From NCBI GenBank assembly GCA_001792895.1, contig MARA01000012.1:1116001-1180000 (forward strand): a stretch of DNA of 64,000 nt, read 5' to 3'. The translations under genes and the position numbers were made by a program. How positions within the stretch are numbered: position 1 is the first letter of the stretch; each line of letters opens with the position of its first letter. The notes below the pieces were generated by a model, which was given only the letters and a program-made list of their open reading frames with translations, was not told the DNA's origin and made no database searches. The DNA comes from Lentinus brumalis. Taxonomy: Eukaryota > Basidiomycota > Agaricomycetes > Polyporales > Polyporaceae. Positions 1-51,523 of the stretch are shown piece after piece.

Positions 1-425
1 ACGTAAACATGATTACGCTACGCTTCCAAATTGGGTTAATTCGGAACTTGCCGAGACGCGCTCAGACGCGTCCTCGACGTGTCGTGCTTCTCCTGTCCTC
101 GACGTGTCCACTGCTGTAGACTACCGGGCATCCCAATAGACATGTTTTCCCTGCTGCTTGACTGCCAGCTGGTTGTCCCCGGGAGTCTTTTGGTGAGTCT
201 CTCTTGCTTGCAGCCCAATAGTAGTTAGTACCACGGCACCCCAATGGCCCGCCCATGGACCCTGACCTTCAGATTCCGAGAATGGAGAAAGGCGGGCACG
301 TTTGCCGCTCGGCTGTGTCTACGGTGTGTCTCTACAAGCCTTGTCATCTCCTGCGAGCTCACCTACTGCGAGCATTAGCTGCGTGCACAAACCTGCCTGT
401 CTGTATCACCACCAGGAAGTCCCGG
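1..425. other. 5' flank, no gene supported
   Basis: No ORF here has a recognisable domain. A short phrase, cctcgacgtgtc, occurs twice (near 72 and 97). The stretch probably holds the promoter of the large plus-strand gene that begins near 426. Confidence 0.4.
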
Positions 426-3275
426 GATGGAAGTCATGGAAGATCAGGACGACACAGCTCTATTCGACAAGCTTTCCGACGGCGACTTCGGGCACGCGAT
501 GGATGAGTGGGAGACGAACTCACCGTTCGTGGAGGAGCAGCTACCCAGGTACGCCGTGAATCTCATTTTGCTGCACCAGTTGCAGCTCGCCTCACTTACA
601 GCTTAATATTATAAAAGGTCTAGAGTTATTGAATTCATCACTGGCACGGAGTTGGAGGGCAGTGCGTCAAAGGATGACGATGTTGCAACCTCCGCGACCA
701 GCCTGTCGAAGACCATACTCCCAACTACCCCTCCACCCTCATCCTCACGACGAGCAACGCGTCTTCCGAGACCGAAACTCGACGAGGCAGGCCGCTCGGC
801 AGCAAGAACACTCACGCGGCTACTCAAGCTGAAGGCTCGCCGTCTGGGGAGGTACCTGTCAAGCGAGGGCCGGGTCGTCCGCGTGGTACCGGTCCGCGAC
901 AACTTGCACGCAAGGCAGCTGAAGCGGCGGGCGAGGTACTCGACGTGCCCAGACGAAAACCGGGGCGGCCGCGTAAGGAGTTGCCGAGCAACCCTGGACC
1001 GCAGAAGCAACTTGAGTACACCGTCACCGTCTCGGTATGTTCTCACCTATCCTCGCTTACTCCTGAGTCCTCGTGCTCATATTCGTTCATAGGGCAAACT
1101 ACGTGTCCCTGGGATGCCCTCGGCTCAACAACTGCGGCAGGATAGTGCTCGGGATGGCCCTGCACACCCAACGCACGCACCACTGGAGCGTCATGCACTC
1201 GGACGTGCCACTGAGGCGGCGCCAAGTACATCGTCCGAGGCCACCTCTGATTTACCTCCGCAAGAAGACAGCAGGGACGGCAGCAGTGTTCTAGGTGATC
1301 AGCATAGCATAACAAGTGCGTATGCTTCGCCTCTCCAGCTCCTATCTACTGACATAGCTCGGAGTCCAGGCGGCGAGCATATTCGTGTCTCAGAGCACCC
1401 ACCTGTGGCTAACCGCGTTCAAGTTCCCCACGCGGTGTCCGTCGTTGTCCCTGATGAGGACCCCTCACAGCTGTTCATGGATTCTCCTCCTGAGGGCGAC
1501 AACGACAACTTTTACAACGCCTTCGTCCTTGATGGAGTCGGTCAGGAGGATGACGACCCAGATGACGATATGGGTCAAGACCCGCTGGCTGATGCTGGCC
1601 GAGGAGTTCCAAACACGCAGACTCAGCGAGCGCGTCCCTCGTGGCTCATGGAGGCCTTCAATGAGAGGATTGCTGAAGCGCGCGATCGCTCGGGGCCCAA
1701 CAAGCTTCCAAATCCTTACCGACAGGGAACCTTCTGGTTTGCGCAAAAGGCGACCTACTTCCTGCTTCGTAATAAGAAGCCTAGCCCTCAATCTCTCTAC
1801 GCACCGCGATTCTTCCTCTGGGACCCACTTTCGCTAGTCTCCCAAGGCATCCCCTGTCCAAATTGTCGCAACGCGCTCTGTCGTGACGGCCACGTTCGTT
1901 ATCCTCGACGGGTTGTGGATCTCAAGCAATCTTTCTGGGTCATTGGGTACATATACCGCTGCAGCGTGTGTACCAACCCCAACACTGGACGGAAAGGAAC
2001 CTTGACATTCCGAAGCTGGGACGCGCGGATCCTCGCCGTGCTCCCACCAGAGCTTCGTGCGGAGTTCCCTGCCCGTCTGAGCTACAGGAGTGGCCTCTCT
2101 GTACAGGCGTACGACCTTCTGCGCTCATGTGTACAGAACGGAATGGGTGCGAAGCAGTTCTCAGACACCTTGCGGGTGCAGCATCTGCGGCATCACGATC
2201 AGACGCACCTTCAGTATCTTCACTACCTCCAAGGACGACGGCACACTGCAGATTGGTTCCCTGGCGAACACTTCGCTCCCTTCCTTCCCTTCGACGACAT
2301 GTCTCTCAATGGGTACCATGGCTTTGTTCCCAGCTCACAGTGGCTTCGAGACCTCTATGATCGTGGAGTCGAGGACCATATGCCGGATATAGACCAGCAT
2401 ACGTCAATGCTGTCTGGTGAAATCTGTGCGATCGACCATAGCCATAAAGTCAGTGACCTAGTACCGCTAACGCCGTCTGTTCATTCGGTGATAAACTAAC
2501 TTGGTCATTTTTCTGGCAGATCACAAAGCACGTCTTCAAGATCAACAGTGTTGAGATCTACGTCGGTCTTCTCTCGGTTACCAATGAGAAGGGCGAGCTC
2601 AGAATATGCGACCTTGTCGCCACGAAGGCTCACTCGCAATTCGAACTTGCACTCAAGCGGATGCGGGAAGCTCTGACTCGCTATGGACATTCCCAGCCCA
2701 AGCTCTTCTACACCGACAACATGGCCGACAAACAATTCCTTGAGACATGCTTTCCTTCTTTGCGAGAGGACATTGTCCCGGTCGAGAAGTATGCGCATCT
2801 TGACCCGCTGGCTCTCCCCGACGATGTCACAGTATTCGTTCACGGCGACACTCAAACCATCGACCAAGCCGTACTCGCTATCATGGACGATGTTGAGGAT
2901 CCAGACTCAGAGATTGTAGTTGGTCTCGATGCCGAGTGGAATGTTGACCTCCTCGCGGCTGGCATGCAAACCCGCAGTGGCGGTCGATCCCGGACGGCGA
3001 TACTACAAATTGCGTACAAGAAGCGTGTCTATATTCTGCAGGTCAGTGCAGCAGTTCTAGTAATGTGTGTCGCCTGTACTGACTTCATTTGTGTCCGGGG
3101 ATCTACGTACAGATTGGGAGGCTGCTTGCCTCGGGGGTTTTTCCGGCGCAGCTGCGCACATTCCTGCTGAACCCTAATGTCCGCAAAGTAGGCCGTCTCA
3201 TACACACCGACTTACGACACCTTCAAATGGAGTGCGGATCATCAGCACCATTCGTCGGTGCGCTTGACCTTGCTC
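426..3275 (+). pseudogene. DUF6729 / transposase-like / WRN-type exonuclease gene, 5' part (split by transposon)
   Basis: This is the 5' part of a large multidomain gene that resumes at 8679. The first ATG is near 426. An exon ending at 1034 carries three AT-hook cores (RRGRPLGSKN, KRGPGRPRG, RRKPGRPRK), which suggests DNA binding. Introns are read at 1035-1092, 2449-2519 and 3042-3112; the N-terminal splicing between about 540 and 690 is unclear. Exon 1093-2448 encodes a Cys-containing region (CPNCRNALC, CSVCTN) resembling DUF6729. Next come IDHSHK (Asp codon 2434) and FYTDN (Asp codon 2715), which look like the two Asp residues of a DDE/RNase H-fold transposase. A DEDD exonuclease domain follows, with motif I GLDAEW (2922-2939) and motif II VGRLIHTDLRHL (near 3190). 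The reading frame is open up to the insertion at 3275. The domain names are family knowledge; the transposase reading is my inference. As it stands the gene is broken, and splicing across the 5.4-kb insert is unlikely. Confidence 0.7.
3272..3275. repeat. 4-bp target duplication, left copy (GCTC)
   Basis: GCTC here is repeated at 8679-8682, exactly at both ends of the outer inserted element. Joining the host at this tetranucleotide keeps the exonuclease frame. Confidence 0.6.
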
Positions 3276-3845
3276 ATCAGGAAAAAAATACATGTCTAGC
3301 TAGACCTATCCCGTCTAGCTAGACGTGATAGGCTGAGAGTATAGTCCCCCTTTCCATAGCAGTAGATAGCCCTGTGCATAGCCTCTCTAGTACTACATAG
3401 CACTGCGATAGCTCTTGATATCTTTTTATATCCTTCATATTCGAGGTAACACGCGCTGGATATACACTGATGATCGTCCTCAAAAAATATATATTGCCAA
3501 TGATACTACACTATACATGGTACATCTACGCTGCCCACACCCCCATGTAAGTCAAAGCTGTCAGCAACAACAGACTTGGACAGCTGGCAGAGCTAAGGAA
3601 GTCGGTAGCAGGCGAGACCAAAGACATGATAGCTGAGGCAGATGACGAGCAAATAGGCGAGAGCAGGGCACGAGTGAAAGGCAGCAAGCAGAGTCACTAG
3701 GCGTGTGCAGATCGACAGATTGAGTCCAGCGCGTGGTGCTTGCTTGGCGGTATAGGGCTTGCAAAGAAGGGTGTGGCGGTGAGTCGACGTGGAGCGAGCT
3801 AACGGCAGACAGGACATGCAGGCTGCAGACAAATGGCGGGCAGGG

Positions 3846-3990
3846 CAAGCGAGCAGCGGGCAGGGGCAAGCGAGCAGCGGGCAGGGGCAAGCAAGCAGCG
3901 GGCAGGGGCAAGCAAGCAGCGGGCAGGGGCAAGCAAGCAGCGGGCAGGGGCAAGCAAGCAGCGGGCAGGGCAAGCGAGCAGCGGGCAGGG
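3846..3990. repeat. 21-bp minisatellite, about 7 copies
   Basis: Seven tandem units start at 3846, 3867, 3888, 3909, 3930, 3951 and 3971. The unit begins caagcragcagcgggcag and differs mainly at one A/G site. The sixth unit is 20 bp. Because the unit is a multiple of three, it produces spurious repetitive ORFs on both strands (for example CPLLACP repeats on minus), which I do not call as genes. Confidence 0.85.
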
Positions 3991-3999
3991 CGGGCAGAG

Positions 4000-4500
4000 C
4001 GAGTCAGCGGTAGAAAGGGCACTGGAATGGCGGACTGAGCGTGGGAGGTGCAAGCAATGCGCGAGCAGCGGGAATGAGCAAGCGACGGGCAGGGCAAATT
4101 GAAGGCTGGCAGGGTGAGCGGATGGCGTGAAGTACGAGCGAGCGGTGGGCAGTTCAGGCAAGTGGGGGGAAGTACGAGGAGGCGCAGGAAGTGCCAGCGA
4201 GTGACGCGGAGTACGAGTCAATGGCGGGAGGTACGAGTCAATGGCGGGAGGTATGAGGAGGCGGCGGGTTGGGTTGAGTAGGCGGTGGGCAGGGTGAGTA
4301 GGTGGCGGGCAGATCAAAGTGGGCGAGCCGGGCTAGCGTGTGGTTGAAGATACAAGGAAGCGGCAGGAGGTACAAGGACGTGACACGAGATACGAGCAGG
4401 CGGCGGGCAGACAGTGGGCAGGGCAAGTAGGTGGCAGGCAGGGTCCAGGACAAGTAGGCAGGGGGCAGGACGACACTCACAGAGCGTCCAAAGACTATCT
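4000..4500. repeat. GC-rich degenerate repeat tract
   Basis: The tract is purine-rich, with diverged repeats of the type gtacgagtcaatggcggga (near 4211 and 4232) and gcgggcag. It lies in the left arm of the outer element. No coding signal is convincing. Confidence 0.5.
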
Positions 4501-4852
4501 TCGAGCTGCCCGTGCATCAGATAAGTAGGACCTTGATTATATCTTGCGTGTTGACGACGCCGGGCAAGAGACGAGGCAGGAGGTGGAGAGCGAAGGGACG
4601 AAAAGTCTGCCAGCGCAGCCAAAGCGCAGGCGCACGTAAGTCACGTGTGACATTTAGTCCAGCCATGACTTGCAGCCTGCAAGTGCAGTTTGGCGCTCGA
4701 ATCCGACCGCGCTCCAGCACAAGATAAATGTGCTATTTCTCACCCTCCCGTGTGTCACTGATCTGCGAGTACGTAGTACAGTAGTTTTTCGCTGTTTGAC
4801 ACTATTCTGCACAGACTCACAGACCGCACAACTATCGAGAGCTATCTAGCTC

Positions 4853-4861
4853 TTGGTGGCT
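4853..4861. repeat. 9-bp target duplication of the MULE, left copy
   Basis: TTGGTGGCT occurs here and at 8593-8601, immediately outside the terminal inverted repeats. Nine bp is the typical target duplication length of Mutator-like elements. Confidence 0.9.
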
Positions 4862-5076
4862 GGATGGTGAGCCTGACCAAGGAACTTCCTTTTTTGGACG
4901 GCATCTAGACGCCTCAGATAAGACATGCGCTTATCTCTCCCGCCTGCCTTATCCGGAGTCCCCGCGCGCCCCTGCCCGCCCTGCCCGCCACTCTTCTCCT
5001 CCTCGACGTCGCGCACAACAACGGACGCGAATGACGCGTCCAAAACGCGTCGTTCCGATAGAATAATCATGTATGC
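4862..5076 (+). repeat. MULE left terminal inverted repeat
   Basis: It matches the reverse complement of 8389-8592 along its whole length apart from an 11-bp insertion and one G/A difference. Confidence 0.9.
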
Positions 5077-5256
5077 ATCTACTGAGGGAAATATAGCACG
5101 CATATGGCGCTCAATACCATAGAATGTCTGCAAGGTGTATGTTTTTCAAAGCACAGGCCCTCCAGAAAAATATAGCCGGGGCCTGTGGCGTCGAGCCAAC
5201 AACATGGGTGGTCTGCGCGAACGGGAAGACACTCACCACTCTGCTTGACATTTGCG

Positions 5257-8200
5257 ATGGCTTACTCTGGCAACAAACCTGCTCAATTCCGTGCTGTTCG
5301 ACCTGCAGAAGCAAGTGGTCAACAAGTCCAGCTCACCACCCGTCGCATAGCGTCGAAGGTCTACATCTCAAAGTTGTGGCTCACCAAGGGACAGCGCGCT
5401 CAAATCGACGCGTTCTACGCGAATCCGGACGCGTCACCGCTTGTAGTCCGTGTATTTGACGCGAACAATGTGGACGAGCAGCGGGCAGCTGCTGCGCTTC
5501 TTGCTTCTGAGGGGCTGGATCCGGACGGGCGCGAGGAGCTTGGGAATCGCTGGAGTTCTCTCTGGGATGGGGAGACAGAGAAGCGTGGAATTCTGACAAG
5601 GCGGGAGCTGTTTCAATGGTAAGTCACTCACCTTGCACCGAGGTACTTACCGCTAAGTAAGTACTACTGGTCTAGTGACTGCGGATATGACCATACCACC
5701 CGGAAGTCGAAGACACGACGTGTTCCCGTCGATTTCACCGGCTGCTTAGCACATGCCGAGATCCTGTGGGAGGTTGCGTCAGGGAAGATATTGATGGTTC
5801 GAGGCTTCTTCGGACACAATGAGGCGTGCAAGGAAGCTTTCATAATGCGCATTCCCCCTCTACCCCTCCACCCATCCGTCTACTCGCTCGCTCTAAAGCA
5901 GCTTGGAATGGGAGCTCAGCTCACGGATATTCAAGCCACCAACCGCACCATGTTCGCACAGCATGCATACCCGGAGCAGCCGCACGATCTCCGAGTCTCG
6001 AAGTCTCCCTACCGCTGGCTCCTTCAGAAATACGACACGCGCTCCCTCTATCGCCAATTCAATCGACTGCGGGGACTACGCACGGTAATTGCGCCTCACA
6101 TCAATGTCCATGAATGGTTAGATCCTTCCTCCCCTTCGTACAAGGAGGAGATCGCATCTGCAGTCTTCTACTACTCGGCTCGCGCAGAGAAGGACGACCG
6201 CTTCGAGGTGTGTATTGCCACCAAGGCAATGCAAGAGTCGGCGTGGAAGTACTGTCACGCGTCGCAGCTCATCCTGGACGGGACCTTTGGGGTCTGCGAT
6301 CGGAAGATGCTCCTCTTCATAGCCATGGGTGTGGATGAACGGGGACATGGCGTCCCTGTTGCATTCTTTCTCTTCTCCGCACCCTCAGGAAACAAGAAGA
6401 CAGACGCTGGGTACAATACGGAGATCCTGGAGAAGCTACTGCTTCGCTGGAAGACCACGCTGGATGCCGCGGACTTCAAGCCAAGCCCAGAAGCATCCTT
6501 TGCGCCGAAGGTCGCGATCACGGACACAGATCTGAAAGAGCGGAACGCCCTTGTCCGCGTCTTCCCAGATATCTGGTTGCTGATATGCAAGTTCCATCTG
6601 CGACAGTCTTGGCGGAACCATCGCGCGCGTGTTCTCAAGGGAACTTCCACGCTCCACGCAGACGTTCGCAGCTGGCTTCGCCAACTGGAGGAGAAGCTCA
6701 TTGACTCCCTCAACCATGCGGACGGAATGGCAGCGATCGAACGCGAGCGTGCACTTCTGACCAGTGAGGTTGCACCTCAGGACTCGCAGCTTGCAGCCGG
6801 CGCACTCGAACATCTCACGTATCTCAGTGGGTACTGGATGTCGGAGTCCCTCTGGAGGAGCTGGTCTGCCTTCGGCCGCCAAGTGGCTGCTGACAGGCTT
6901 GGATTCGAAGTCAATGCAGTACTCACCACTACAAATCACCTGGAGTCTTTCAACGGAATCCTCAAGCGGAAGCATCTCTCCCGCTGGCAACGCGGAAACC
7001 GCCGCCTCCGACTCGATGTTCTACTGCATCTGTTGATCACCAACATCATCCCATCAATCTTCAAAGCGCGCTCGCTGCAGGACACGGAAAGCACCCGCTT
7101 TGTTGCCATGTTGAAGGCCCTTCCGGGAGGGGATGCTCTTGTGCAGCAGATGGAGGCAAGAGAGAGACGAGGAACCGGCGGACAACAGTCGCAGTCACCC
7201 ACGCTGCCATGTGCTATTCACACAGACGATTCCACGCGTGATGCCGCTGCGTCCGAGATGTTCTCCGAGAAGCAGATAAGTGTTCCCATCCTCAGCTTCG
7301 AGGGCGAGACGCGCATCTTCGAATTTGATTGCTTCTCCTCCCGGGCTCTGGAATCCGACATACTCCCCATGCAATACAGGATAGCTGTTGGCGAGGACGG
7401 CTCGGCAGCCTGCTCGTGCCCCGACTTTCTGCACCACATGCATGCCTGCAAGCATATCCGTGCAGCACTCCTCCAGCTGGATGCGCTGCGCAGATCTGGA
7501 CTCAATCTACCCTGCATCTCCCTTCCCACCAGCGCAGACGAGGCTCACACGCGGTTTGATGATCAGCCTCCCGCTGTATCTCCGCGCTCAACCGTTACGG
7601 TTTCCCCTCCCACCCTTTCACCTTCCGAGCCAGCTTCAGCACGCATCATGCAGCGCGCGAGCAACCTAGTAGCCGACCTGCTCAGGGAGTCGGGTGACGC
7701 CTTCGAAGGGCACGATGAGGCCGTCCACATTGGCACCCGCACACCGGACGCAGAGCCCGAGCGCTCGCGTACTCCCGATTCGTCGCAAGTCCCGAGTCCC
7801 GTGCCCGCCGTATCTGCAGTAGATGAGGTTCGATGCGGAACTGCTTCAGCTTCAGACGTTCCTGCCATCATGACGTCTACTGCTGCGCCGAGCAGTGCAC
7901 GGGATGGCATTGACCGACAGGCAGTCGGGCGTGTCCTCCACGAGCTAGAGTGCATTGCACCACGCCTCCGCGAGATGCAGGCCCATCTGGAGGGCGTCTC
8001 GCTCGTACCCGCAGAGGTTGATCGGACAACCGAGGCAAAGAGACAGCTTGACGCTGTCTCAAAACGACTCTCACAACTGCTCGGCACTGTGTCGAGTTGT
8101 CCGGACTCCGCAGCATCTGTGATGCCCTCCACAGTACCCCAGAAGAGAGCAGCGGCAGACTCTCCCCCCTCTCCAAGAAGCCTGCAGAAGCGACGTGAAA

Positions 8201-8358
8201 CTTACCTTACCCCAATCACCGAGCCCTCTAACATCCCTACTATCACGTTCCCTACCCATTCCCGCTCTCAGAAGCTTCGGAAGAGGCCAGCCTTGTCGCT
8301 CTTGCCGCCCTCCCCTGAGAAATCCCAGAAGAGGAAGGATTCCTACGGTATTCATTAG
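5257..8358 (+). CDS. MULE transposase with SWIM zinc finger (2 exons)
   Basis: The predicted protein is about 1014 aa, from exons 5257-5618 and 5676-8358; the intron starts gtaagt and ends tctag, and joins a codon to give Cys. Start choice: the ATG at 5257 begins MAYSGNKPAQ and no in-frame ATG precedes it inside the element. The N-terminal region contains a CxC/His-rich stretch (CDCGYDHTTRK) that is probably the DNA-binding finger. The MULE catalytic core is visible: LILDGTF (first Asp, about residue 322), AITDTD (second Asp, about 405) and TTNHLESFNG (Glu, about 544). A SWIM finger CSC-x8-CKH follows near residue 700-715, then a Ser/Pro-rich tail with basic patches. It would catalyse cut-and-paste transposition in the nucleus. 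No stop or frameshift is visible. Confidence 0.93.
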
Positions 8359-8388
8359 TAGAAATACGCTGTGTCGTCCTAAATACAA

Positions 8389-8592
8389 GCATACATGATT
8401 ATTCTATCGGAACGACGCGTCATTCGCGTCCGTTGTTGTGCGCGACGTCGAGGAGGAGAAGAGTGGCGGGCAGGGCGGGCAGGGGCGTGCGGGGACTCCG
8501 GATAAGGCAGGCGGGAGAGATAAGCGCATGTCTTATCTGAGGCGTCTAGATGCCGTCCAAAAAAGGAAGTTCCTTGGTCAGGCTCACCATCC
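8389..8592 (-). repeat. MULE right terminal inverted repeat
   Basis: Inverted copy of the left repeat, lacking its 11-bp insertion. It begins immediately downstream of the transposase stop codon. Confidence 0.9.
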
Positions 8593-8601
8593 TTGGTGGC
8601 T
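8593..8601. repeat. 9-bp target duplication of the MULE, right copy
   Basis: TTGGTGGCT, identical to 4853-4861. Confidence 0.9.
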
Positions 8602-8678
8602 ATGCTGGTCATCTCCCGAGCCCTCGGAGAACTTGATAGTTCAGCGGGGCTCTACCTAGCATTTCGGTTTTTCCTGAT

Positions 8679-11458
8679 GCTCGGCTTGCCAAAGACCGGC
8701 GGATTGTGTCGAGCGCGCGGGCAAGCCTCTCAGAGCTCTGCGCAACCATTCTTCACCGTCGCCTCAACAAAGCAGTATCAGAACGCGTAAGCACTGCTTG
8801 GGAGAATCAAGAGCTCTCGAAGGAGCAGCTGTCGTACGCTGCACTGGACGCATATGCCTCTCTGCGTATCTATGAGGAACTAGCGAAGGTCTCCGCGCCA
8901 GTACCTCTACTGAGCAACGCAGCTCTCTTCCCCTCTCTCCCTGTTCTACTCTACCACGCCGATAACACGCGTGTCATTGCGTCTGGAGCTATATCGACTC
9001 ACGCAACAGATGCCAGATACGACAACATCAAGATCACTCCCACACGCACAGTCATGACCGTCGAAGAGGTCTTGATTCCTGGAGCACTTGTAACTACACA
9101 CCATAATCGCCCTCTTCAGTCCTTTGGCCCCCCACCTTTTGACATCGTATGTCTACGTTCGCACCTTCGCACCAAACCTACAGGGCCTCAGCCACCACTG
9201 TCCGTTCCACCGGGGAGCTCGTCGGGCGACTCGGGCCCGGAGCCGCATCAAGAGCCCACGGCCGCCGGTGGCATATCACTCGACTCAGACGACTCTCATC
9301 CTGCCATGTCCCTCTCAGACGACTCTCATGAATCATCATTAATCGCTGCAGCTCTGTATGACCAGGAGGGCCCAGATGATCCGAGCGGGAACGGCGCGGA
9401 GGAACTGTTGCTAGACTCGGCTCCTGTCTATCCCCGTGATCCTCAAGATCTCTCGAGCTATGAGCGGGACCCTGCTGGAGAGTCGCACGCGAGAGAGCTC
9501 GAAGCATCAAGTCAGGAGAGCATCATCTCTGGATGGGAAGCCCCTATCCGCAGCCGCGTTCTGAAGGACGTGTGGCACGTTTTCAACATGCTCTACATCT
9601 CCAGAGTACACGGCCTGAGGTACGCCTTCGCAAATGCACTGCGTGATGCAATCTTTGTCCCGGACAAGCAGGACAAAGATAATATCACGCGCTACCTCTC
9701 GACGCTCCCAGCTCCTCGGAACTCCTGGGATTATATGGTCCGCACAGCACCACGATGGGTTTGGCGGCACTGCAAGCGGCTCATACCGCCCCCGGAGCTT
9801 CTCTACCCTCAGGTTTCACGTGTCTTTCAGACGTACGGGCCCCTGAAGGATGCGAAGACAGCACAGCCGCTCTTCAATGCTGCTGCATGGCACACAGCCA
9901 AGAACATCCTTGCGCTGATCCAGAATGGCTTCGTGTCCGACCCGCCAGGTATCGCACTCTACTACGTCATTGGCATCGACCAGAAAGCCGGGTACCTTCC
10001 GCTCTACCGCTGTATGCGCGGAACAAATTGGACGGAAGGCGGAGTCCATCGTCATCTTCGAACCCACCTCCCTACATCCGGTACTTCGCCCCGCCATATG
10101 TTGTGTTGTTTATACGAATTCATTTTACGACACAACCTTCTCGTAAGTGATTGCCGACAGCATCTCAGTGTGGCACAACGCTGATATGTACGATAGGTTG
10201 GAACATTCAATTCGACAGGAAAGCCATATCGGAACCATTACGACATCTGGCTCACGAATCAACTGCAAGAGATGCTTGCACTTACAGCAGATATCATCCC
10301 CGAGGCTCGACAGCTCAGCGGCTGGGTAAACGGTAACCTGTACTCACGGACAACGGAAGTCTTCGGCATCCTTCCAATTCCCGAGGACGTCCGTGTTTCC
10401 AGCGGCATGCAGAAGTACACCGCCGGGCTCGATAGCAAGCAACGTCACGGATTCCTCGCCTCGAAACAAGGGTCCCGGAAAGCTGTTCTGCCTGTGCATA
10501 CCGCGGCAGAATACCATCTATTCAGGCGGCTTGTCCAGGACGAGCCAGCTCTGAATCCACAGACGGGTGAGCCAGACTGGGACGGTGCAGTTGTCACATG
10601 GAACCGCGAGGCAGAGAGGAACGACGAGGTTTACTACAAGGTTCGCCTACAGCTGTGCTGGCTTCCGTGCTCAGTCTGTTGACTCTGATCGTCTTGCAGC
10701 TTGTGGAACATCTCAGGGCGTACTTCACGACATGGCAGTCAAATATGAACATCAAGAACACGCTTGCGCAGACAAGCAGCGCGCGCAAGGGAGCTGACTT
10801 GGCGGTCCGTGATCCTAAACGGTCAGATGGTGCCCCGCCCGCGCCTGAAAGATCGAAGCCGGCTCAAATGGCACGCAGCGGAATATTGAGACTTGAAGAC
10901 ATGGAGGTGAGCGTTCACATCTGTCGACTCTGTCGGTCATGCACGCGCAAGCCACAGCACCATATTGATCCATCACTTACGCAGGACTCTCAAGACTACA
11001 GGTCTTCTACAGACCGTCGAGGAACGCCTTCGCATCCGCAGAATCTGCGGCCTACAGGTGCAGTATCGCAACACACGAGGTCCAGGTTACTATACCTGCT
11101 GATGGCGAATTTCACAGATTCAGCACCTGGAGTAGTGGCCGGAGAGGCTGAAGATCATCATGGCGATAGACAAGCTTCAGGGACTACTGGTCCGTCGCCA
11201 GGAACATCGACCACATCCCACTCCGAACACCTCAAAGCTGTAGCGCGCAAGCATGCACTCACCGACGGATACACGCCCCCTCCAGCGAAGAAACCCCGCC
11301 AGAATCGGACCTGCGCCAAATGCGGCGACTCCTCTACTTGTCCGGGACGTTCTGCAGCCAAGTTGTGCCCCAAACCGTGCCAGGATTGCGGGCGGAGGGA
11401 GTGTCGAGGGCGGAACTCCAAGCGGCCGAAGAAGCCCTGCTTTGAAGGGTGGGATTGA
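8679..11458 (+). pseudogene. DUF6729 / transposase-like / WRN-type exonuclease gene, 3' part
   Basis: This continues the gene interrupted at 3275, in the same frame. It opens with LAKDRRIVSSARA, then exonuclease motif III YAALDAY (Asp codon 8847). After a Ser/Pro-rich acidic linker, a conserved block includes MRGTNWTEGGVH (Glu codon 10035), which resembles the TNxxESxNxxL segment carrying the catalytic Glu of MULE-type transposases. Introns are read at 10143-10196 (joining HNLL to VGTFNSTGKPY) and 10641-10699. The 3' end is ambiguous between about 10905 and 11150, where two frames look coding. The last coding stretch has a Cys-rich knuckle with CAKCGDSSTC and CQDCGRREC, and stops at 11458. 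It lacks its own start and should be read together with 426-3275. Confidence 0.65.
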
Positions 11459-11773
11459 CGAGAGAGGCTGCTAGAGTACATTCTTGGAAGATGTCAAGCA
11501 CAGAGAGATGCCGTAGGATTGAAAATGGACAGTCGTTCTTGCTGTGGTTATCCGAGGGAGGGAAAAGACAAGGACGCCGCGGTGAGTATCGAACCGCAGC
11601 GCCTTCCCAATTGGCTCCCTTTATTTATTTATTATTTAGTTTAATTTCACCCAGCACAATCGCTATCCAGCCGAACACAGCCTCCAAAGTCCTGACTGAT
11701 ACGAAGCCGGCACTCCTATACCTTGCCACCACCACTATCTCGCCCATCCTCCAGTATTCCAGCATCGCCGCCG
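11459..11773. promoter_or_regulatory. Intergenic, presumed promoter of the RHS/CRN-like gene
   Basis: AT-rich patch with tttatttatttattatttag near 11620-11640. No ORF with recognisable content. Confidence 0.3.
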
Positions 11774-13792
11774 ATGAATCAAACAGTGAAACGAGGCCGC
11801 CGAGCTCATGAGTCCAAAACTGACGAGCAACTATCACATCAGGCTCGACGTCGCAACGAACGCGCAGACGAGTGGGAGGTACATGTGCATCCCCTTCTGT
11901 TCCCTACCTACTCTGATGGGTGTATGCAGAAAGAGGGATGGACGCGCCTTGACACCGACCACTGGGTCGCGTTTCTCGAGGAGCGGTGGGGAGAACCTGG
12001 CAAGGCGCTCCTCAGGTCCGAGGACCGGATAATCGAAGTGGGACAGAAAGGTGTCTGGCAAGACCTCGATGTCCTCAGCGAGACGGCTGGCAAGCTTTAT
12101 CGCCGTGAGTCGGAGTACGACAGAGCATACACTCGCTTCCGCAGTGCCCACAAGCAGGAGGATATTTCCGGTGTGGTCCTGTCGGGCTCACCCGGGGGTG
12201 GTGCGTGTCCCTGGCTTTGAGCGAGGCCCGCGGACTGATCTGTCGAGCTATGCCAGGCAAGTCATACTGTTCCTTATACGTCCTCCTCAAACGCCTTGCG
12301 CACAAGCGGCCAGTTCTCTTCACTACGAAACGGGGGAAAGTGTTCTATTTCGACGAATCCGGCGTTAGGACCTGTAGGGTCGAGAAGGTATCCCTTCCGC
12401 GGTGTCTTCAACATCTCAGCCATCATCCTACAAAGCGAGTCTGGTCGCTCATCGACCCTGGTGTGGTCGTTAGGCCAATCCTCGGGGAAATCACGGCGTC
12501 TGCAGTCTTCCACGTCGTCTTCGCTTCCCCAGACCCAACCAGATACGGCCATCTTCTCAAGCAGTCAACTGTCTATCACATCATGCAGCCGTGGACAGTG
12601 AGCGAGATTCACGTATAGTGATTACCATTCTCTCATGTCGTGACTGCGCCTTGATGCTGACCTCCTGTCTAGCTTGTCGCTAATACGTAAAACGTCCCCT
12701 AAGACTGGACTGCCGTACACCCTTGAAGAAGCCCGAGACATTCAGCGGGAGGTTGGCCCGTGTCCCCGTGACATCAGGACGGCATTGCGCGGTGGCCTAG
12801 AGTCTTACAAGACCAACGTGCATGAGATCGTCGCCCGCCTCGACATCGCCGAGATCAACCGGGTCCTTCTTGCGCTGCCAACGTTGTCTTACCACAACTC
12901 TGACCACATCGCTTTGCTCGGTAGGGGTGGTAGGGATGGCGAGATCGACGCTACCAGTGTTCAAGACGATGTCGCCGTCGTCAACTTCAAAACCGAGCAC
13001 ATTGCGGAGCTTGTGAGAAGAGGTTTCCTGCAATACGAGTTGCATAGTGCAGCACAATTATTCAGCACGTGCAGTACACTGGTGCAGGGTCGGACCGCGG
13101 CCCTTGCCGGCATCTTGTTCGAAGGCATGAATATTGCTCTGCTATGCGACCTCGACTCGTACAAGATAGATCGCTCCAGAGGGTTTTCGCCAATGGAGGA
13201 GGTCCAAATCAAGAGCGCGGATCTCCCGCGTCGCTTCGAGTACCACAGCGTTCGTTCGGAGACCACGCTGCTCGTCGACGAGGATTGGACTCTCAGACTC
13301 ACCCCTGAGACTCAGACCTTCAGCTCGCGCCGTGCTCCCTCCACCCTACCCGCAACCAACCCCGACACGCAGAAGCTTGCTCTCCATCGCTATACGTCCT
13401 TCGAGGACATCACGGAGCTCGCCCTCGGTGGATGTTACGTCCCCAGAGAACCCAACCCGCACTTCGACGGCTTCTTCTTACTCCATGCCGGAGGTCAGAT
13501 CGAACTCTGGGTCATGCAGGCCACAGTCAGTCGTCCGCATGCAGCTGTCCCCGGGAGCTTCGAGACGGTGCAGAAAGTGTTCGCGAAGGCGAACAGGACC
13601 TTCAACGGTAAAGTCCAGCTGAAGTACCTCCTGGTGGCGCCATACCAATCCGGGCTGTCCGTCGTGTTCAATATGGCCAAGGAGTGGAGTGCCGTCAAGA
13701 CCAAGTTCCAGGTATATCTACAGTTCATCGAGATCGCCCCCAACTGGACCGCGGAGGATATCATCCGGCCGTGTTGCTCAGCGAGATACTGA
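11774..13792 (+). CDS. Crinkler/RHS-type P-loop NTPase with C-terminal nuclease-like domain
   Basis: The ATG at 11774 begins MNQTVKRGRRAHES. A possible small intron lies at about 11877-11930. The Walker A motif SGSPGGGKSY is assembled across a clear intron at 12201-12256. FYFDESGV and FHVVFASPDPTRYGH follow and are typical of the CRN/RHS NTPase family. A further intron near 12613-12672 (or up to 12703) has an uncertain acceptor. The C-terminal half contains FDGFFLLHAGGQIELWVMQAT, which fits the D..(E/Q)x(K/T) core of the restriction-endonuclease-fold domain described for this family. The stop is at 13790-13792. Family knowledge: these proteins are proposed nucleic-acid-targeting effectors or conflict proteins, often multicopy and close to transposons, as here. 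The function in this organism is not known. The exact exon join near 12.6-12.7 kb could instead hide a frameshift. Confidence 0.75.
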
Positions 13793-14407
13793 GAACGGAC
13801 ATGGCCACTGCCAGAGTCGCACCATGGCCCTCAGGCTCTCTTCCGCATGCATGTATGCTGTTGTTCCGCGTTGGAGCCACCGGGGGGCTGTCCTATGGAG
13901 AGCCTAGGTGAGCCTTAGGTGTCCAACGGCCAACGTCCGCACTCACCTTACGACGAAACGTACACACAACAGTCTCATACTTATCCCGTGTGGTTCCCTA
14001 TGCGGTGCACCTATGTAGTGCACTCCCTCCATCGCACTCGTTGTCTCCTCACCTGCTCTGCCTCCTCTTTTATCGTCTATGTACATTGAATATCGCGGCA
14101 CTCGCATTGCACTTACGCGCGTCGCGCCTTGGGCTCGCGACCTGCCGACGAGAATCTTTCATGCGTCGCCAACATGACATCTCGCACAGGCAGGTATCCA
14201 GAAATCCAACGTGCACATTTAACTATCTATCTCTACATGTTTTGGTACAACAGCGAATCTTCAAGATGCGGAGCAGAGTGTTGCGACAGGACAAGGAGCA
14301 GTTGTAATACAAGTACACACAGAAGAGTGGAGCAACGACGACGATGTCAACGGTAAATCAAGGCTTGGTGAACCTCACAGGTAACTTCTTCGCACAACCC
14401 ACTACGC
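13793..14407. other. Intergenic between convergent genes
   Basis: It holds the 3' regions of the plus-strand RHS/CRN gene and the minus-strand trehalose phosphorylase. Short ORFs only; nothing recognisable. Confidence 0.4.
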
Positions 14408-17400
14408 TCAGCCCTGGACGTTGAGGCCCGTGCGCGGGAGACGGGGCTCGCCAGGCTCGTACGGCTCGCCGCACTCCGTGCGCATGAGGTCGTTGAGCCA
14501 CGCGCCCTTGGGCTGGAGCTTCACGCCGCGCGAGACGTACATGACCGCGAGGTACATCCACGCCGCTGCGTTGCCGACCGTCGAGACCTCGTCCGAGACG
14601 TGCGTGCGCGCGTACTCGGACATGGTGTCGAACAGGTCGTCGTCCGTGTACAGGTCGAACATGTGCTTCGCGACCGCCGCGTTGTCTCCGGGCTCGCAGA
14701 GGTACCCGCTCTTCCCGTGCTCGATCTGCAAGGGGATGCCGCCCGTGCGAGACGCGATGACGGGCTTCCCGGCGTGTAGCGCCTCGGAGACCTTGACCTC
14801 GAAGCCCTCGCGAGTGGAGAGCTGGAGCGCGAATTTGGAGTTCTCCATGAGCGCGTTGAGGACTGAAGGAGGGGGTCAGCCTCGGCAAGCTCGGAAAAGA
14901 TAGGGAAGATACGCACGCTGGTCGCTGGGCGGGCAGCGCATGACGACGAAGTCTTTCGCGTACTGAGGGTACTTGCTATGTATGAGCTGCATGGTCTCGT
15001 CGTAGATGATGCTAGCATCAGGGTCGTCGACAGCACCGTGACCGCAGATGAGCATTTGCGGCGGCTCGACGTTCGGCTCCTTCTCGAGGAGCTTGCGGAA
15101 GCGAGCATAAGAGTCGATGACGTTCGGAATACCCTTCGAGGGGTCGAACCGGGCGATCTGGACGATGTAGTCGCGCATCGGCCACCCGAGCTCGATCATC
15201 TTCTCCTTGACGCAGAGCTGGCGGAACTCGCCCATGTAGTACTGCGCGTCCCAGTCGCCGAGGTGCTTGTTGAGCCCATCGAGCCTGGGAGAATCAGTAA
15301 GGCGAGGGTCCGATGATGGGTGCAAGGGACATACCAGTCGGTAGCAGCACCGAGCAGCGCGAGCTTTTCGGGCGGGACGTCACTCGGGACGAACTTGTTC
15401 ACGGGGTGAGAAATGAACATATCTGCGTGCTGGATGTTGTTCCAGAGATACTTCCAGACCTCCTCCTGCGGCGAGCCAGCGACGTGCACGAGGTCACTCC
15501 GGATCTCGATGTGGGAGCGGTAGATGATAGGGAGGTCAGGGCGTACGCGCTTGATGAGCGGGATGAGACCAGGCATCTGCGGGTCATCTGTAGGAGCAGT
15601 CAGCATAACTAGGTAGAACTGTATGCCGGACGAACTTACCGATGAATGCAATGTCAACACCGCCCGGCGCGAGCGGTCCACCCTCGCCGGTCCATCGGAG
15701 GCCGTTCTTGAGGATCCAAGCATCGAAGTTGTCCTTTGCCTCCTTCGAGAGACGGAGGTTGGGGTCGGCGACGCCTTGGAGGATGTTGTGGTTGTTCTTC
15801 GTGGTCCGGAAGACGCTTGGAGACGGGTTCGGAACATACCTGCGAGATTCGGTCAGCACGTTGAACCTCTACTCTCACGGAGATGGTGATAGCTGCAGCG
15901 CGACGTCCTGGATAGGATTCAGATTACGCGCGCTCCGTCGAAGTGACGGAAGTAAACCTTGCAGCCAAGAAGAGCCAGGGCGACTCACCATGCGCAGTCG
16001 ACGTCGAGGAGAGCCAGGAACCGGATCAGCGCGTGACGCATCTGATATTTTCAGCATTAGCCACGGTGTGGACCCATGAAACGAGCGGACGCACCAAAGC
16101 GACACCACCTGCAGACAGAAGTGATCAGATTATGCGTGAGAAAAGACGTTCAATTGAGATTGAATACGCGAAGCAACGCTAGAACCGATCAATCCCCGCA
16201 ATGCGGGGTAATCACATGCCTTCCGCAGAACAGGGGAGCACCAGTGTGTCATCGCCATGTCTCTCGCACGGTCGCGGAATAAAACATACACGCGCAGACG
16301 ATGCGAGCTTACGAGTAGAAGCATAACAAAGGAGAGAGTACTCACCACCCTGCGGCGTGGACGAGAAGAAGCCAATCTTGATCTTCTTCTCGCGCAACTC
16401 GTCGGCCAGCTTAATGACCGAGTTCCACGTCCCCTTGTGCACCGACTTGCGATATTCGTCGATGTCGTCGATGAGGTGGATCTTGCCGCCAGCGTCGACC
16501 GCGACCTGGTTGCGGGGACCAATCTGAAGACGCGGGTTGTTGCCGGGCCCGAAGTACATGATACACTTGCGAGCCGCGGAATCGGCCTGTTCGTCGACCG
16601 TGCGCGGGATGGGAAGCTTGTTCTCGGTGGCGCCGGCGGTGAGGTGCGCACCGCTAGGCAGCTGGGAGGGGTCGTAGTAGACCGTGGGGGTGTCCGCGCC
16701 TGAGGGTACATACGAGCCGGTTGTGGAGGAGATACGGTGCTTGATGTTCGGGCGAGTCACGGAGTCGGTGTGGTACGGCTTGATGTTGAACACGATGGGG
16801 ACAATGTCCAGGTCAAGCCAAAGCCGCGTGCAAAGGTTCGGTGCCTGTAGTGCATGTTTAGATTATGGCACTACGCGTTGAGACCGGTACAGGGACGGAC
16901 TGCGGCCGTCGCCGGGTCGCAAAACGCTCGCAGATCATGGCTACTCCGCGAGTGCTGCAAGCCCAGCTTGCGCACCAATGATGTTACTTGGACCAGGTGG
17001 ACGTTGCCATTTAAGCTTACGAAGATCGTGAAGAAGCTTCGTAGAAGCCGCAACAAAGCAGTCAGGAACCCAAAGACATTCCTCGAGGAAGCTTCGCCAG
17101 AGGAATCTAGCCAGGTCCTTCCCGGGTTTCGCGCCGCAGAACCAATAGGAATGCAGAAGCATATTCCACGCGCGAAAGCAACGCGTTGCGGCTGCAGTGG
17201 GACCCTGGACGCGCATCCCCGACACAAATTGCAGAAGGGGGGGATCGCAGACGTACCTCGCGCAAGAGACTGACGGTGACACCCGCACCGAGGAACTTGC
17301 ACAAGTGCTCGGTCGAGAACTTGCGCAGGATGTCGAGGACATGCTTCTCTATCTCTGCGGCCTGAGTCTCGGGGTCGTTGGCGTTGTACGAGATGGTGGA

Positions 17401-48641: not shown

Positions 48642-49710
48642 TCAAGCCAAAGGTGGAGGAGCGAAAGGAAGAGCCGGAGGCTCGAAATCTTGAGTGCGAG
48701 GATCGGCCCAATGGAGTCGAGTGGATAGGTGCAGGATGCGGTCGCGGGAGACATCAATGTACAGCCGGTACGCATCACTGCGCCAGCGCCCAAGCTGTTG
48801 AATCTCATGGTCGGCGTATCCCACTGAGGCTGCAGAGGTCGCGGCTCCGCGACGGAAGCTATGTCCGGAGTACTTCGCACCATCAAAGCCTAGCGCAGAT
48901 AATAGTGACTTGAGGCGGGTTACGAAAGAAGAACGAGTGAGAGGGGAACCTGGCCCTAAATCTCCAAAGAACATCGGTGCTGCGGGATCTTGTGGGTCCA
49001 TTTGAAAGAGACGGCGAAGCGCAGAGACAGGGCATGTGGCAGCACCTGGAGCTGATGCGACGAGGATAGAGACGCCCTTTCGAAATGGGTCAGTCTTGGA
49101 CGCGGGGAGGGATAACACTACATGGGTAGCAGTGGCGATATCCGGGAGGAACTGCGCGGATCCACGAGAGAGGCCGGTAGACGGGCTATAAGCCGAGTCT
49201 TTGCTGACGGTGAATTCTCCGCAGCGGAGAAAGCCTGCAAATGCTAAGGTGATGGCAGCTTGAAAGTTGACATCCTGAAGAGAAATTGGAGAAAGGGAGG
49301 AGCACAGGCGCCGCAGAATGTCGAGGGTAATAGGAAGCTTTGGGTTGCGTGCGCGTTCGCCGTGGTAGCGCTTGATCCCGCGGATGAGACGCTGCACAAC
49401 GGGAGACTCGCACACTGCGAAGGGGAGATCAGCATCGACGTGAAGGGAACGGACACCCGTGAGATAAGACTTGATTGTTTTCGGCTGCAGGCCGCGCGCG
49501 CCCAAAGCTGCGACCCACTCCATGACCGCACGCTGGGAGGCGGGAAGAATGGAGCCGTCAGGGTTGGCAAATGCCGGGTTCAGGCGCACGAAATCAATGA
49601 AAGACTTTTGGCCAGTGCCATAGGTCTTGCGGGTACTGGAAGCGAGTCCGTGCCAGAGGTAGAAAGCGACATGTCGAGAGTACTGAGAGTGCGTTTCATA
49701 CCAGTGAGCG
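48642..49710 (-). CDS. Retrotransposon tyrosine recombinase
   Basis: Cuts and rejoins DNA to integrate a circular element copy. An N-terminal SAM-like core-binding region reads HGLASSTRKTYGTGQKSFIDF. The catalytic domain shows FLRCGEF (first Arg) and YSGHSFRRGAATSA (HxxR), then DAYRLYI with the probable nucleophilic Tyr. The stop is at 48642. The frame is open upstream into the reverse transcriptase ORF for over 100 nt without an ATG; the only near-start is a GTG at 49589. Expression may therefore depend on frameshifting or on an unseen intron. Confidence 0.88.
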
Positions 49711-51523
49711 GGGGGTGCGGTGAGGAGGGTTTCGGGGAGAGGTGCGGGGCGAGCTGGAAAAGCTGGGTGTACTGGAAACGGGACGCTGCGTCAGCTAAGG
49801 CGTTTTCTTTCGATGATAACCAAACAGAGGAGAATGAGAAGTCGAGGCAAGCAGCCATCATCAGGAGGGTGCGAAGCACGGACATCGTAGCCCGTGAGCG
49901 GTTGCGGTCTGTTTCTATGGCGTTGACGATGACCTCATTGTCGATGTGGAAAACCACATGTTGACCGCTCCAGGTATGACCCCAGCGTAGGGTTGCTTGA
50001 AGGGCCGCGTATATCTCCTTGAACTGGATATCGCGCTTCCTAAAGCGCCGTGGGACTCGAGTGGCAAACCAAGAGGTGCCAAAGATGCCTCCGATACCTT
50101 TGGACTCTGCTCCGCTGGCATCGGTGAAAACGTGAATGGTTGCTCGTGAAGGGGTGATGAGCATGATGCCGTTCCACATGGAGTGGAAGACGGACCACCA
50201 ATGAATGTCGGCGCGTGCGTATGCGGGGATGTGACGGACAGAGAAGGCGGACTTGAAGGTAGCGGAGAACTCAATCAGACGGCGGATGAATGCACGAGCG
50301 TGCGGGATGACTTGCGCCGAGAACTGTAGGAACCCAATCAGGCTCTGCAATTCCCGAAGTCGGCATGTCCGCTTAGTGCGCCAAGTCGCGAGCATGTCCC
50401 CGAGCCAGGCCAGCTTGTCTGCCGGCATGCGGGCCTCCATTGCATCTGTGTCGAGTTCATGACCAAGAAACTCGAGACAAGTGCAGGGCCATGTGGTCTT
50501 GAGTTCCTGAAACTCCAGTCCGAGCTGTTTCCCAAGACCCATCATCCATTCCACAGCTGCATGAGCAGTGGGCAGAGGAGTAGATGGTGCAAAGATTGGC
50601 AGAAAGTCGTCGAGGTAGTGGCGGAGTGAGGCGGGGATGTGTCGCTGAATAATCCAGTGGAGTGCTTCGGCGAACAAGTTGAATATATACGGAGCAGACT
50701 TAGCACCAAATACAAGAACAACGTGATAGTAGAACTTGTCGAGCCAGTGGCAGCCCAGCAAGTACCAGTCGTCGCGCCGAACCGGGATGTGTCGAAAAGC
50801 GTCCTTGAGATCAAGTTTGGCAAGCAAAGATCCGCGACCGAGACGTCGAACCTCTGCGACAGCAGAGTCGAAGGATTCGTAAGAAATATGACTTTCGGAG
50901 TCAGGAATACCATCGTTTACTGATGAGCCGGGTGGCCAAGAGAGGTGGTGAATGACACGGAGCTTGGCGGGGTTGCGAGGGCGGGACACAACGCCGAGGG
51001 GTGAGCAGCGGAATGGGTTCAGCAGCGGAGCTGGAAAGGGACCATGTATGCGATGGCGGGGGAGCAGCGCGGCAATGTCAGCGGAGACGGTTTCAGGATG
51101 TTCAAGAGCAGAACGCAAATTGCGGCAGGACTGGGACTGCGACGGGCCAGAGTATCCGAGACAAGCACCATATTCTATTATGTGGAGTATGGACTGTACA
51201 TAGTCTTGGTCTGGATATTCGGCGAGGTAATGTGCCCAGACGTCACGCTTCAGTGATGACTGAACGCGGAACGTGTCGTCGACTCGTCGTGCAATATGGT
51301 TGCACCGAGGGTCGGTGTTGGGGCGAGCGGAAGGGGGCGGACCGGGCGGAAATAACGGTGCATGCGGGAGCGGCGGCGGCTGGGCCGCGGGAGATGTGGA
51401 GTGTGGGGGAACAGAAGTAAATGGAGGCCGGAATACGGGGGAGAAACCGGTGCTGCCGTCCTTTTGGCGAGGACGAGCGGGTTGGCAGGAAGCGGTACAG
51501 GAACCACTCGTCCTGCCACGCCT
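49580..51523 (-). CDS. Retrotransposon reverse transcriptase-RNase H
   Basis: Copies element RNA into DNA. The frame is open directly after the gag stop codon. It includes HIARRVDDTFRVQSSLKRD and SILHIIEYGACLGYSGPSQ, then the RT domain: LRVIHHLSWPPGSSVNDG, LAKLDLKDAFRHIPV, FGAKSAPYIFN and the YLDD box in LRHYLDDFLPIF. The RNase H domain shows HVFTDASG, FKEIYAAL, HIDNEVIVNAI and NALADAASRF. The C-terminus overlaps the recombinase frame and stops at 49580. No ATG is evident at the beginning, so it is probably made as a gag-pol fusion. Confidence 0.9.
   Translation of the reverse strand, partial: RRGRTSGSCTASCQPARPRQKDGSTGFSPVFRPPFTSVPPHSTSPAAQPPPLPHAPLFPPGPPPSARPNTDPRCNHIARRVDDTFRVQSSLKRDVWAHYLAEYPDQDYVQSILHIIEYGACLGYSGPSQSQSCRNLRSALEHPETVSADIAALLPRHRIHGPFPAPLLNPFRCSPLGVVSRPRNPAKLRVIHHLSWPPGSSVNDGIPDSESHISYESFDSAVAEVRRLGRGSLLAKLDLKDAFRHIPVRRDDWYLLGCHWLDKFYYHVVLVFGAKSAPYIFNLFAEALHWIIQRHIPASLRHYLDDFLPIFAPSTPLPTAHAAVEWMMGLGKQLGLEFQELKTTWPCTCLEFLGHELDTDAMEARMPADKLAWLGDMLATWRTKRTCRLRELQSLIGFLQFSAQVIPHARAFIRRLIEFSATFKSAFSVRHIPAYARADIHWWSVFHSMWNGIMLITPSRATIHVFTDASGAESKGIGGIFGTSWFATRVPRRFRKRDIQFKEIYAALQATLRWGHTWSGQHVVFHIDNEVIVNAIETDRNRSRATMSVLRTLLMMAACLDFSFSSVWLSSKENALADAASRFQYTQLFQLAPHLSPKPSSPHPPLTGMKRTLSTLDMSLSTSGTDSLPVPARPMALAKSLSLISCA

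Follow-up and report, generated by a model that had tools for sequence, protein, structure and literature searches.

A Dada-like transposon of the basidiomycete Lentinus brumalis has relatives in the same genome that form head-to-tail arrays, in which an 8-bp target duplication encloses the whole array and each internal spacer is exactly the last 6 bp of that duplication. These arrays are the element of our finding that looks new, as no report of such an 8/6 rule in a eukaryote was found in the open-access literature consulted. The explanation that best accounts for the data as a whole, and which we consider probable, is that a Dada-like transposase acting in an IS256-like manner built the arrays in place. 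The first copy was identified in a stretch of 64,000 nucleotides (contig MARA01000012.1, hereafter C24, positions 1,116,001 to 1,180,000 of the forward strand), which is referred to as the window.

The unit found in the window is a whole transposon copy on the forward strand, spanning positions 1..11672 with its first 43 bases just outside the window (contig C24:1115957-1127672). Its ends, GGGTCGCTACGGATTGTGCTGG on the 5' side and AATCGCTATCCAGCC on the 3' side, are sharp limits of homology to a copy on contig C77. From GGGTCGC to CCAGCC the copy has an exact 8-bp duplication, GAACACAG, on both flanks, the right copy lying at 11673..11680 and the left one outside the window. The termini are imperfect inverted repeats matching at 16-18 of 22 or 21-22 of 24 positions (random mean 5.6, maximum 15 in 20,000). 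A 382-codon open frame with no Pfam match lies just 3' of the element (12644-13792, forward strand). Farther along, on the reverse strand (48642-51523), a tyrosine-recombinase-like ORF (PF00589, E 1.6e-4, below the cut-off) stands beside a reverse transcriptase ORF (PF00078, E 8.7e-12); we presume that this is probably a DIRS-like retrotransposon.

The gene of the window copy is on the forward strand and, its first exon left out, contains introns at 1035-1092, 2449-2519, 3042-3112, 10143-10196 and 10641-10699. Three GRP cores (GRPLGSK, GRPRGTG and GRPRKE, 786..980), which resemble AT-hooks, are followed by exon 1093-2448. This exon encodes the DUF6729 domain (PF20499; 1735..2364, residues 215-424 of the exon; E 1.7e-18, 67.5 bits), on which no paper was found in the open-access literature and which contains the Cys pairs CPNC and CSVC, and then the first catalytic Asp, D1 (2434..2436), in DHSHK (2434-2448). 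Exon 2520-3041 carries the second catalytic Asp, D2 (2715..2717), in YTDN (2709-2720), and motif I of a WRN-like DEDDy exonuclease (DAEW, 2928-2939); the following exon, beyond intron 3042-3112, carries motif II (IHTDL, 3200-3214), which completes the first half of the exonuclease (2928..3214). Downstream of an interruption are found, successively, exonuclease motif III (YAALDAY, 8835..8855; PF01612, E 1.6e-7), a DxxH motif (DVWH, 9567..9578), the catalytic Glu (10035..10037) in RGTNWTEGG (10017-10043) and a C-terminal Cys-rich knuckle (CAKCG...CQDCG, 11312..11392). An initial annotation of this DNA had named DHSHK, YTDN, DAEW, IHTDL, YAALDAY and RGTNWTEGG, and had placed AT-hooks in front and a zinc knuckle behind; the motifs were recovered at the positions that it gave, as were the GRP cores and the knuckle. 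It had also described the gene as a single reading frame, whereas the gene comprises several exons separated by five introns and its exonuclease is broken by a 5.4-kb insertion.

An alignment of 46 homologue rows, in which counts refer to the rows bearing a letter at a given position, showed that D1 is Asp in 39/41 rows, D2 is Asp in 44/45, the catalytic Glu is kept in 36/38 and the His of DxxH in 41/43. The exonuclease residues are similarly retained: Asp (42/46) and Glu (43/46) of motif I, Asp of motif II (43/44), and Asp and Tyr of motif III (44/45 each). This conservation indicates that the motifs are more than chance and, together with their order, it bears out the proposal that an exonuclease is embedded in a DDE transposase, between its D2 and its Glu. 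Simple patterns jointly detected D1, D2 and E in 31 of 152 homologues; the D1-D2 spacing, limited by the pattern to 55-90, is 70 residues in 30 of them and 67 in one, and D2 and E are 500-653 residues apart. No natural homologue without the exonuclease that might serve as an insert-free control was seen among the 152 proteins. Narrow patterns detected no exonuclease motif in seven of the 31 pattern-complete homologues, but in these seven D2 and E are still more than 500 residues apart, and P0031 and P0076 among them carry a precomputed PF01612. D1, D2, E and the long D2-E distance are kept in P0029, P0048, P0071, P0072 and P0074, which show neither the exonuclease patterns nor a precomputed PF01612; their exonucleases have possibly decayed or diverged. 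Cys is near-invariant at two positions of P0089. P0065, a DUF6729 protein from a 2.8-kb contig assigned to a metagenome-assembled genome of Legionellaceae, is likely a fungal contamination. In viral contigs, 25 stretches fit the pattern for relatives and none was confirmed.

The insertion that breaks the window gene (about 3276..8678) separates exonuclease motifs II and III, which leaves this copy dead. The empty site is preserved in the C77 paralogue, which is ∼76-77 per cent identical to the window in DNA: window 1-3273 aligns to C77 10835-14114 and window 8678-9187 to 14112-14621, the C77 coordinates being unbroken. The inserted DNA is a dispersed repeat whose ends read ATCAGGAAAAA and TTTTTCCTGAT; it is likely flanked by a 4-bp GCTC duplication, and related stretches are present on C132, C36, C47, C13 and C69. 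Its non-coding part (window 3276-4852 and 8602-8678) contains a 21-bp minisatellite (3835-3990), and the C132 and C36 matches to the repeat share one pattern, as if duplicated. Nested within it is a MULE (4862..8592, forward strand) with inverted repeats at 4862-5087 and 8378-8592, a 9-bp duplication (TTGGTGGCT, 4853-4861 and 8593-8601) and an ORF (5623-8358) encoding PF10551 and SWIM domains; a genome search for its terminal repeat gave no further copy. The MULE had been regarded as a neighbour of the gene but in fact lies inside the DNA that interrupts the exonuclease, and ∼5.4 of the 7.6 kb originally assigned to the chimeric gene are unrelated inserted sequence.

The initial annotation had suggested looking for multi-copy homologues with shared terminal repeats; the genome contains coding and non-coding copies with 8-bp duplications. 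A genome search located the 5' terminus of the window copy on C77, C88, C82, C63 and C54 as well. It caps elements of 760-765 bp on C88, C63 and C54, while the C82 element is scattered over several kilobases and the DUF6729 exon of the single C77 copy, a member of this first subfamily, contains either an in-frame stop or an additional intron. The second subfamily, whose proteins are 34-39 per cent identical to the window exons, is represented by four identical 5,963-bp units on C77, each with 1,460 codons free of stops across five consecutive exons, by 653-bp relatives on C2, C51 and C43, and by partial or one-ended copies on C72, C70 and C126. An exact 8-bp duplication was found at 8 of the 12 loci examined (C24, C54, C88, C63, the C77 array, C2, C51 and C43); fragments beyond these 12 lie on C126, C56, C1 and C115. 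The two flanks of the single C77 copy agree only imperfectly (AAAATTCGG versus AAAATTCA), and C82, C72 and C70 show a single end only within the stretch examined. An RNase MRP RNA gene (L046 1138-1502, reverse strand) lies 118 bp from the non-coding element of C54, the element being on the 5' side of the gene.

Head-to-tail arrays occupy five of the 12 loci: C88 (2 units), C63 (3), C77 (4), C2 (4) and C51 (2). Each array has an identical 8-bp duplication on both outer flanks, and the spacer at every one of the 10 internal junctions consists of precisely the final 6 bp of that duplication. The five duplication/spacer pairs are GGCTTCTG/CTTCTG, GGAGATGA/AGATGA, GAACCGTG/ACCGTG, GCGAGGAT/GAGGAT and CCTCCACT/TCCACT; such an agreement is expected by chance ∼1 time in 4,096 per array. 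Because every spacer agrees with its own flank, and flanks vary from array to array, the arrays were formed in place. As the spacer corresponds to the last rather than the first 6 bp, the right end would have acted as donor in all five. The arrays are known from the genome assembly alone; as five separate arrays follow one rule, assembly errors are unlikely.

Could such arrays have formed without the transposase, if the two target duplications of one insertion had undergone unequal exchange or replication slippage? The units are identical inside an array, bar one gap in C88, and differ between arrays, the identity being what local duplication predicts, and replication slippage has been proposed for tandem coral MITEs (PMC2872659). 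However, exchange between 8-bp repeats would leave 8-bp spacers, and the 10 junctions of the five arrays have the last 6 bp instead; simple exchange between duplications thus fails to explain the arrays, and we consider this origin unlikely. Somewhat less probable still is that multimers, assembled at a donor site or in the form of circles, were inserted ready-made. Circles with flank-derived junctions are described for IS256-type elements (PMC7780238), and fish Dada-tA seems to take 6 bp of old flank along (PMC8869645). Ready-made multimers nevertheless predict spacers from the donor flank, whereas in 5/5 arrays the spacer agrees with the local duplication, which itself varies from one array to the next.

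The initial annotation had read the gene as a possible chimera, with a nuclease inserted into a MULE-like fold, and as a candidate for a new class of fungal mobile or selfish gene. The embedding and the mobility are real, and a MULE match (PF10551) does cover D2. This match scores 13.6 bits against a curated cut-off of 27.6, further profile comparisons of the Dada-like transposase gave no MULE match, and hhalign against the MULE of the window returned 0.3 per cent; sequence-based MULE kinship was therefore rejected. Moreover, the identical architecture was already known, since Kojima and Jurka (2013, PMC3706591) reported Dada transposons of Laccaria and Ectocarpus whose DEDDy exonuclease lies between the second D and DxxH. 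The proposed new class is accordingly very improbable. A domesticated host gene, which the single-copy-like window locus and the multi-exon gene might suggest, is a negligible prospect in view of the target duplications, inverted termini, non-coding derivatives, four identical tandem copies and the broken state of the window copy.

We return to the IS256-like action of a Dada-like transposase. ISCth4, an IS256-family element, encodes a copy-out/paste-in transposase that combines a DDE triad with a C/DxxH motif located in a helical insertion (PMC7780238). One terminus uses its 3' end to attack the flank beyond the other terminus, so that the resulting end-to-end junctions contain 6-8 bp of flanking DNA; integration is best from a 6-bp junction, and integrants have 8-bp duplications. 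The IS256-type combination of an 8-bp duplication with a 6-bp flank-derived junction is present in 5/5 arrays and at 10/10 junctions. Since the exonuclease filled the PDB match lists of the full-length model, an exonuclease-free natural homologue of 431 residues, ending 56 residues past D2, was searched instead; its top fold match was ISCth4, and the match is weak. No hAT transposase was among the PDB matches listed, an absence that is uninformative. By analogy with ISCth4, we infer an asymmetric strand transfer in which the 3'-OH of the right end of the element would attack the flank at a point 6 nt beyond the left end. Attack on a sister copy, or repeated copying of the joined intermediate, would then yield arrays in place, and integration at a new site would proceed with an 8-nt stagger; tandem dimers formed from two copies are described for IS30 (PMC9333248). 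The exonuclease might trim the 3' ends made in the transfer reaction, a role suggested for Dada by Kojima and Jurka (PMC3706591) and the weakest of these inferences.

It is a broader proposition, on which we are evenly divided, that fungal exonuclease-bearing Dada-like transposons move and amplify by IS256-type copy-out, that the arrays are fossils of this process, that one 8/6 rule extends from bacteria to fungi and fish, and that the 6-bp duplication published for some Dada is a misread junction spacer. DDE transposons of eukaryotes are usually regarded as moving by cut and paste. If the proposition is true, a C/DxxH family copying out like IS256 would explain how some transposons seed tandem arrays, the 8-bp duplication with a 6-bp spacer would provide a genomic test applicable to every assembly, and Dada would be described with a corrected duplication length. 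The four identical C77 units, with their five consecutive open exons, are candidates for a biochemical test, including one of the role of the exonuclease.

Set against Dada by its published description, the Lentinus elements are probably a Dada-like variant, a judgement made jointly with that on the array mechanism. Both share the DDE triad, DxxH, a DEDDy exonuclease between D2 and DxxH (in Dada-1_LB and Dada-2_LB of Laccaria bicolor and Dada-1_ES of Ectocarpus; PMC3706591), N-terminal Cys pairs, introns and internally deleted derivatives. The last three are also reported for zebrafish Dada-U6 (D567, D635, E811, with an N-terminal CCCC finger; PMC3706591), whose D1-D2 spacing is 68, compared to near 70 in the Dada-like elements. 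The CPNC and CSVC pairs of the DUF6729 exon correspond to the N-terminal CCCC pattern and form a putative zinc finger; the C-terminal knuckle is Cys-rich, with a spacing and a third ligand other than those of the published CCHC. The label remains Dada-like because of three departures: (i) the duplication is 8 bp rather than 6-7 bp, (ii) imperfect inverted repeats stand at the very ends, whereas Dada has sub-terminal ones instead, and (iii) a screen of the scanned loci gave no tRNA and no Rfam match at the insertion site, whereas Dada elements with definable termini target snRNA or tRNA genes. The in-place arrays with their 8/6 rule are likewise unlike the published Dada traits. Zebrafish Dada-U1 nevertheless shows an apparent 8-bp duplication, CTGCGAAT, with GCGAAT between tandem copies, for which the authors chose 6 bp with 8 unexcluded (PMC3706591); this and the 6-bp flank of Dada-tA fit the 8/6 rule, while two tandem Dada-U1A copies with zero added bases if the duplication is 6 bp (PMC3706591) fit less well.

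MULE (PF10551) transposases likewise belong to the C/DxxH group of DDE transposases and make 8-9-bp duplications, but have no significant sequence match to the Dada-like transposase. ISCth4 shares the DDE triad with C/DxxH, the 8-bp duplication and the 6-bp flank-derived spacer. It differs (PMC7780238) in being bacterial and exonuclease-free and in the variable length and polarity of its junctions: either end is the donor (5 versus 3 of 8 junctions), and IS256 spacers measure 5, 6, 7 and 19 bp. The fungal junctions, in contrast, have one length and one polarity and lie in chromosomal arrays read from an assembly, whereas IS256-type elements make circles. KolobokP (PMC9587614) is another DDE transposon of the C/DxxH group in eukaryotes; it carries an extra nuclease and forms tandem multimers enclosed by a single duplication, and its authors noted a resemblance to IS256 copy-out on other grounds. 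However, it makes TTAA duplications, its units have long terminal direct repeats in common, its nuclease is of the His-Me finger type and its spacer, according to its authors, typically equals the duplication in length, as against 6 bp to 8 bp in Lentinus.
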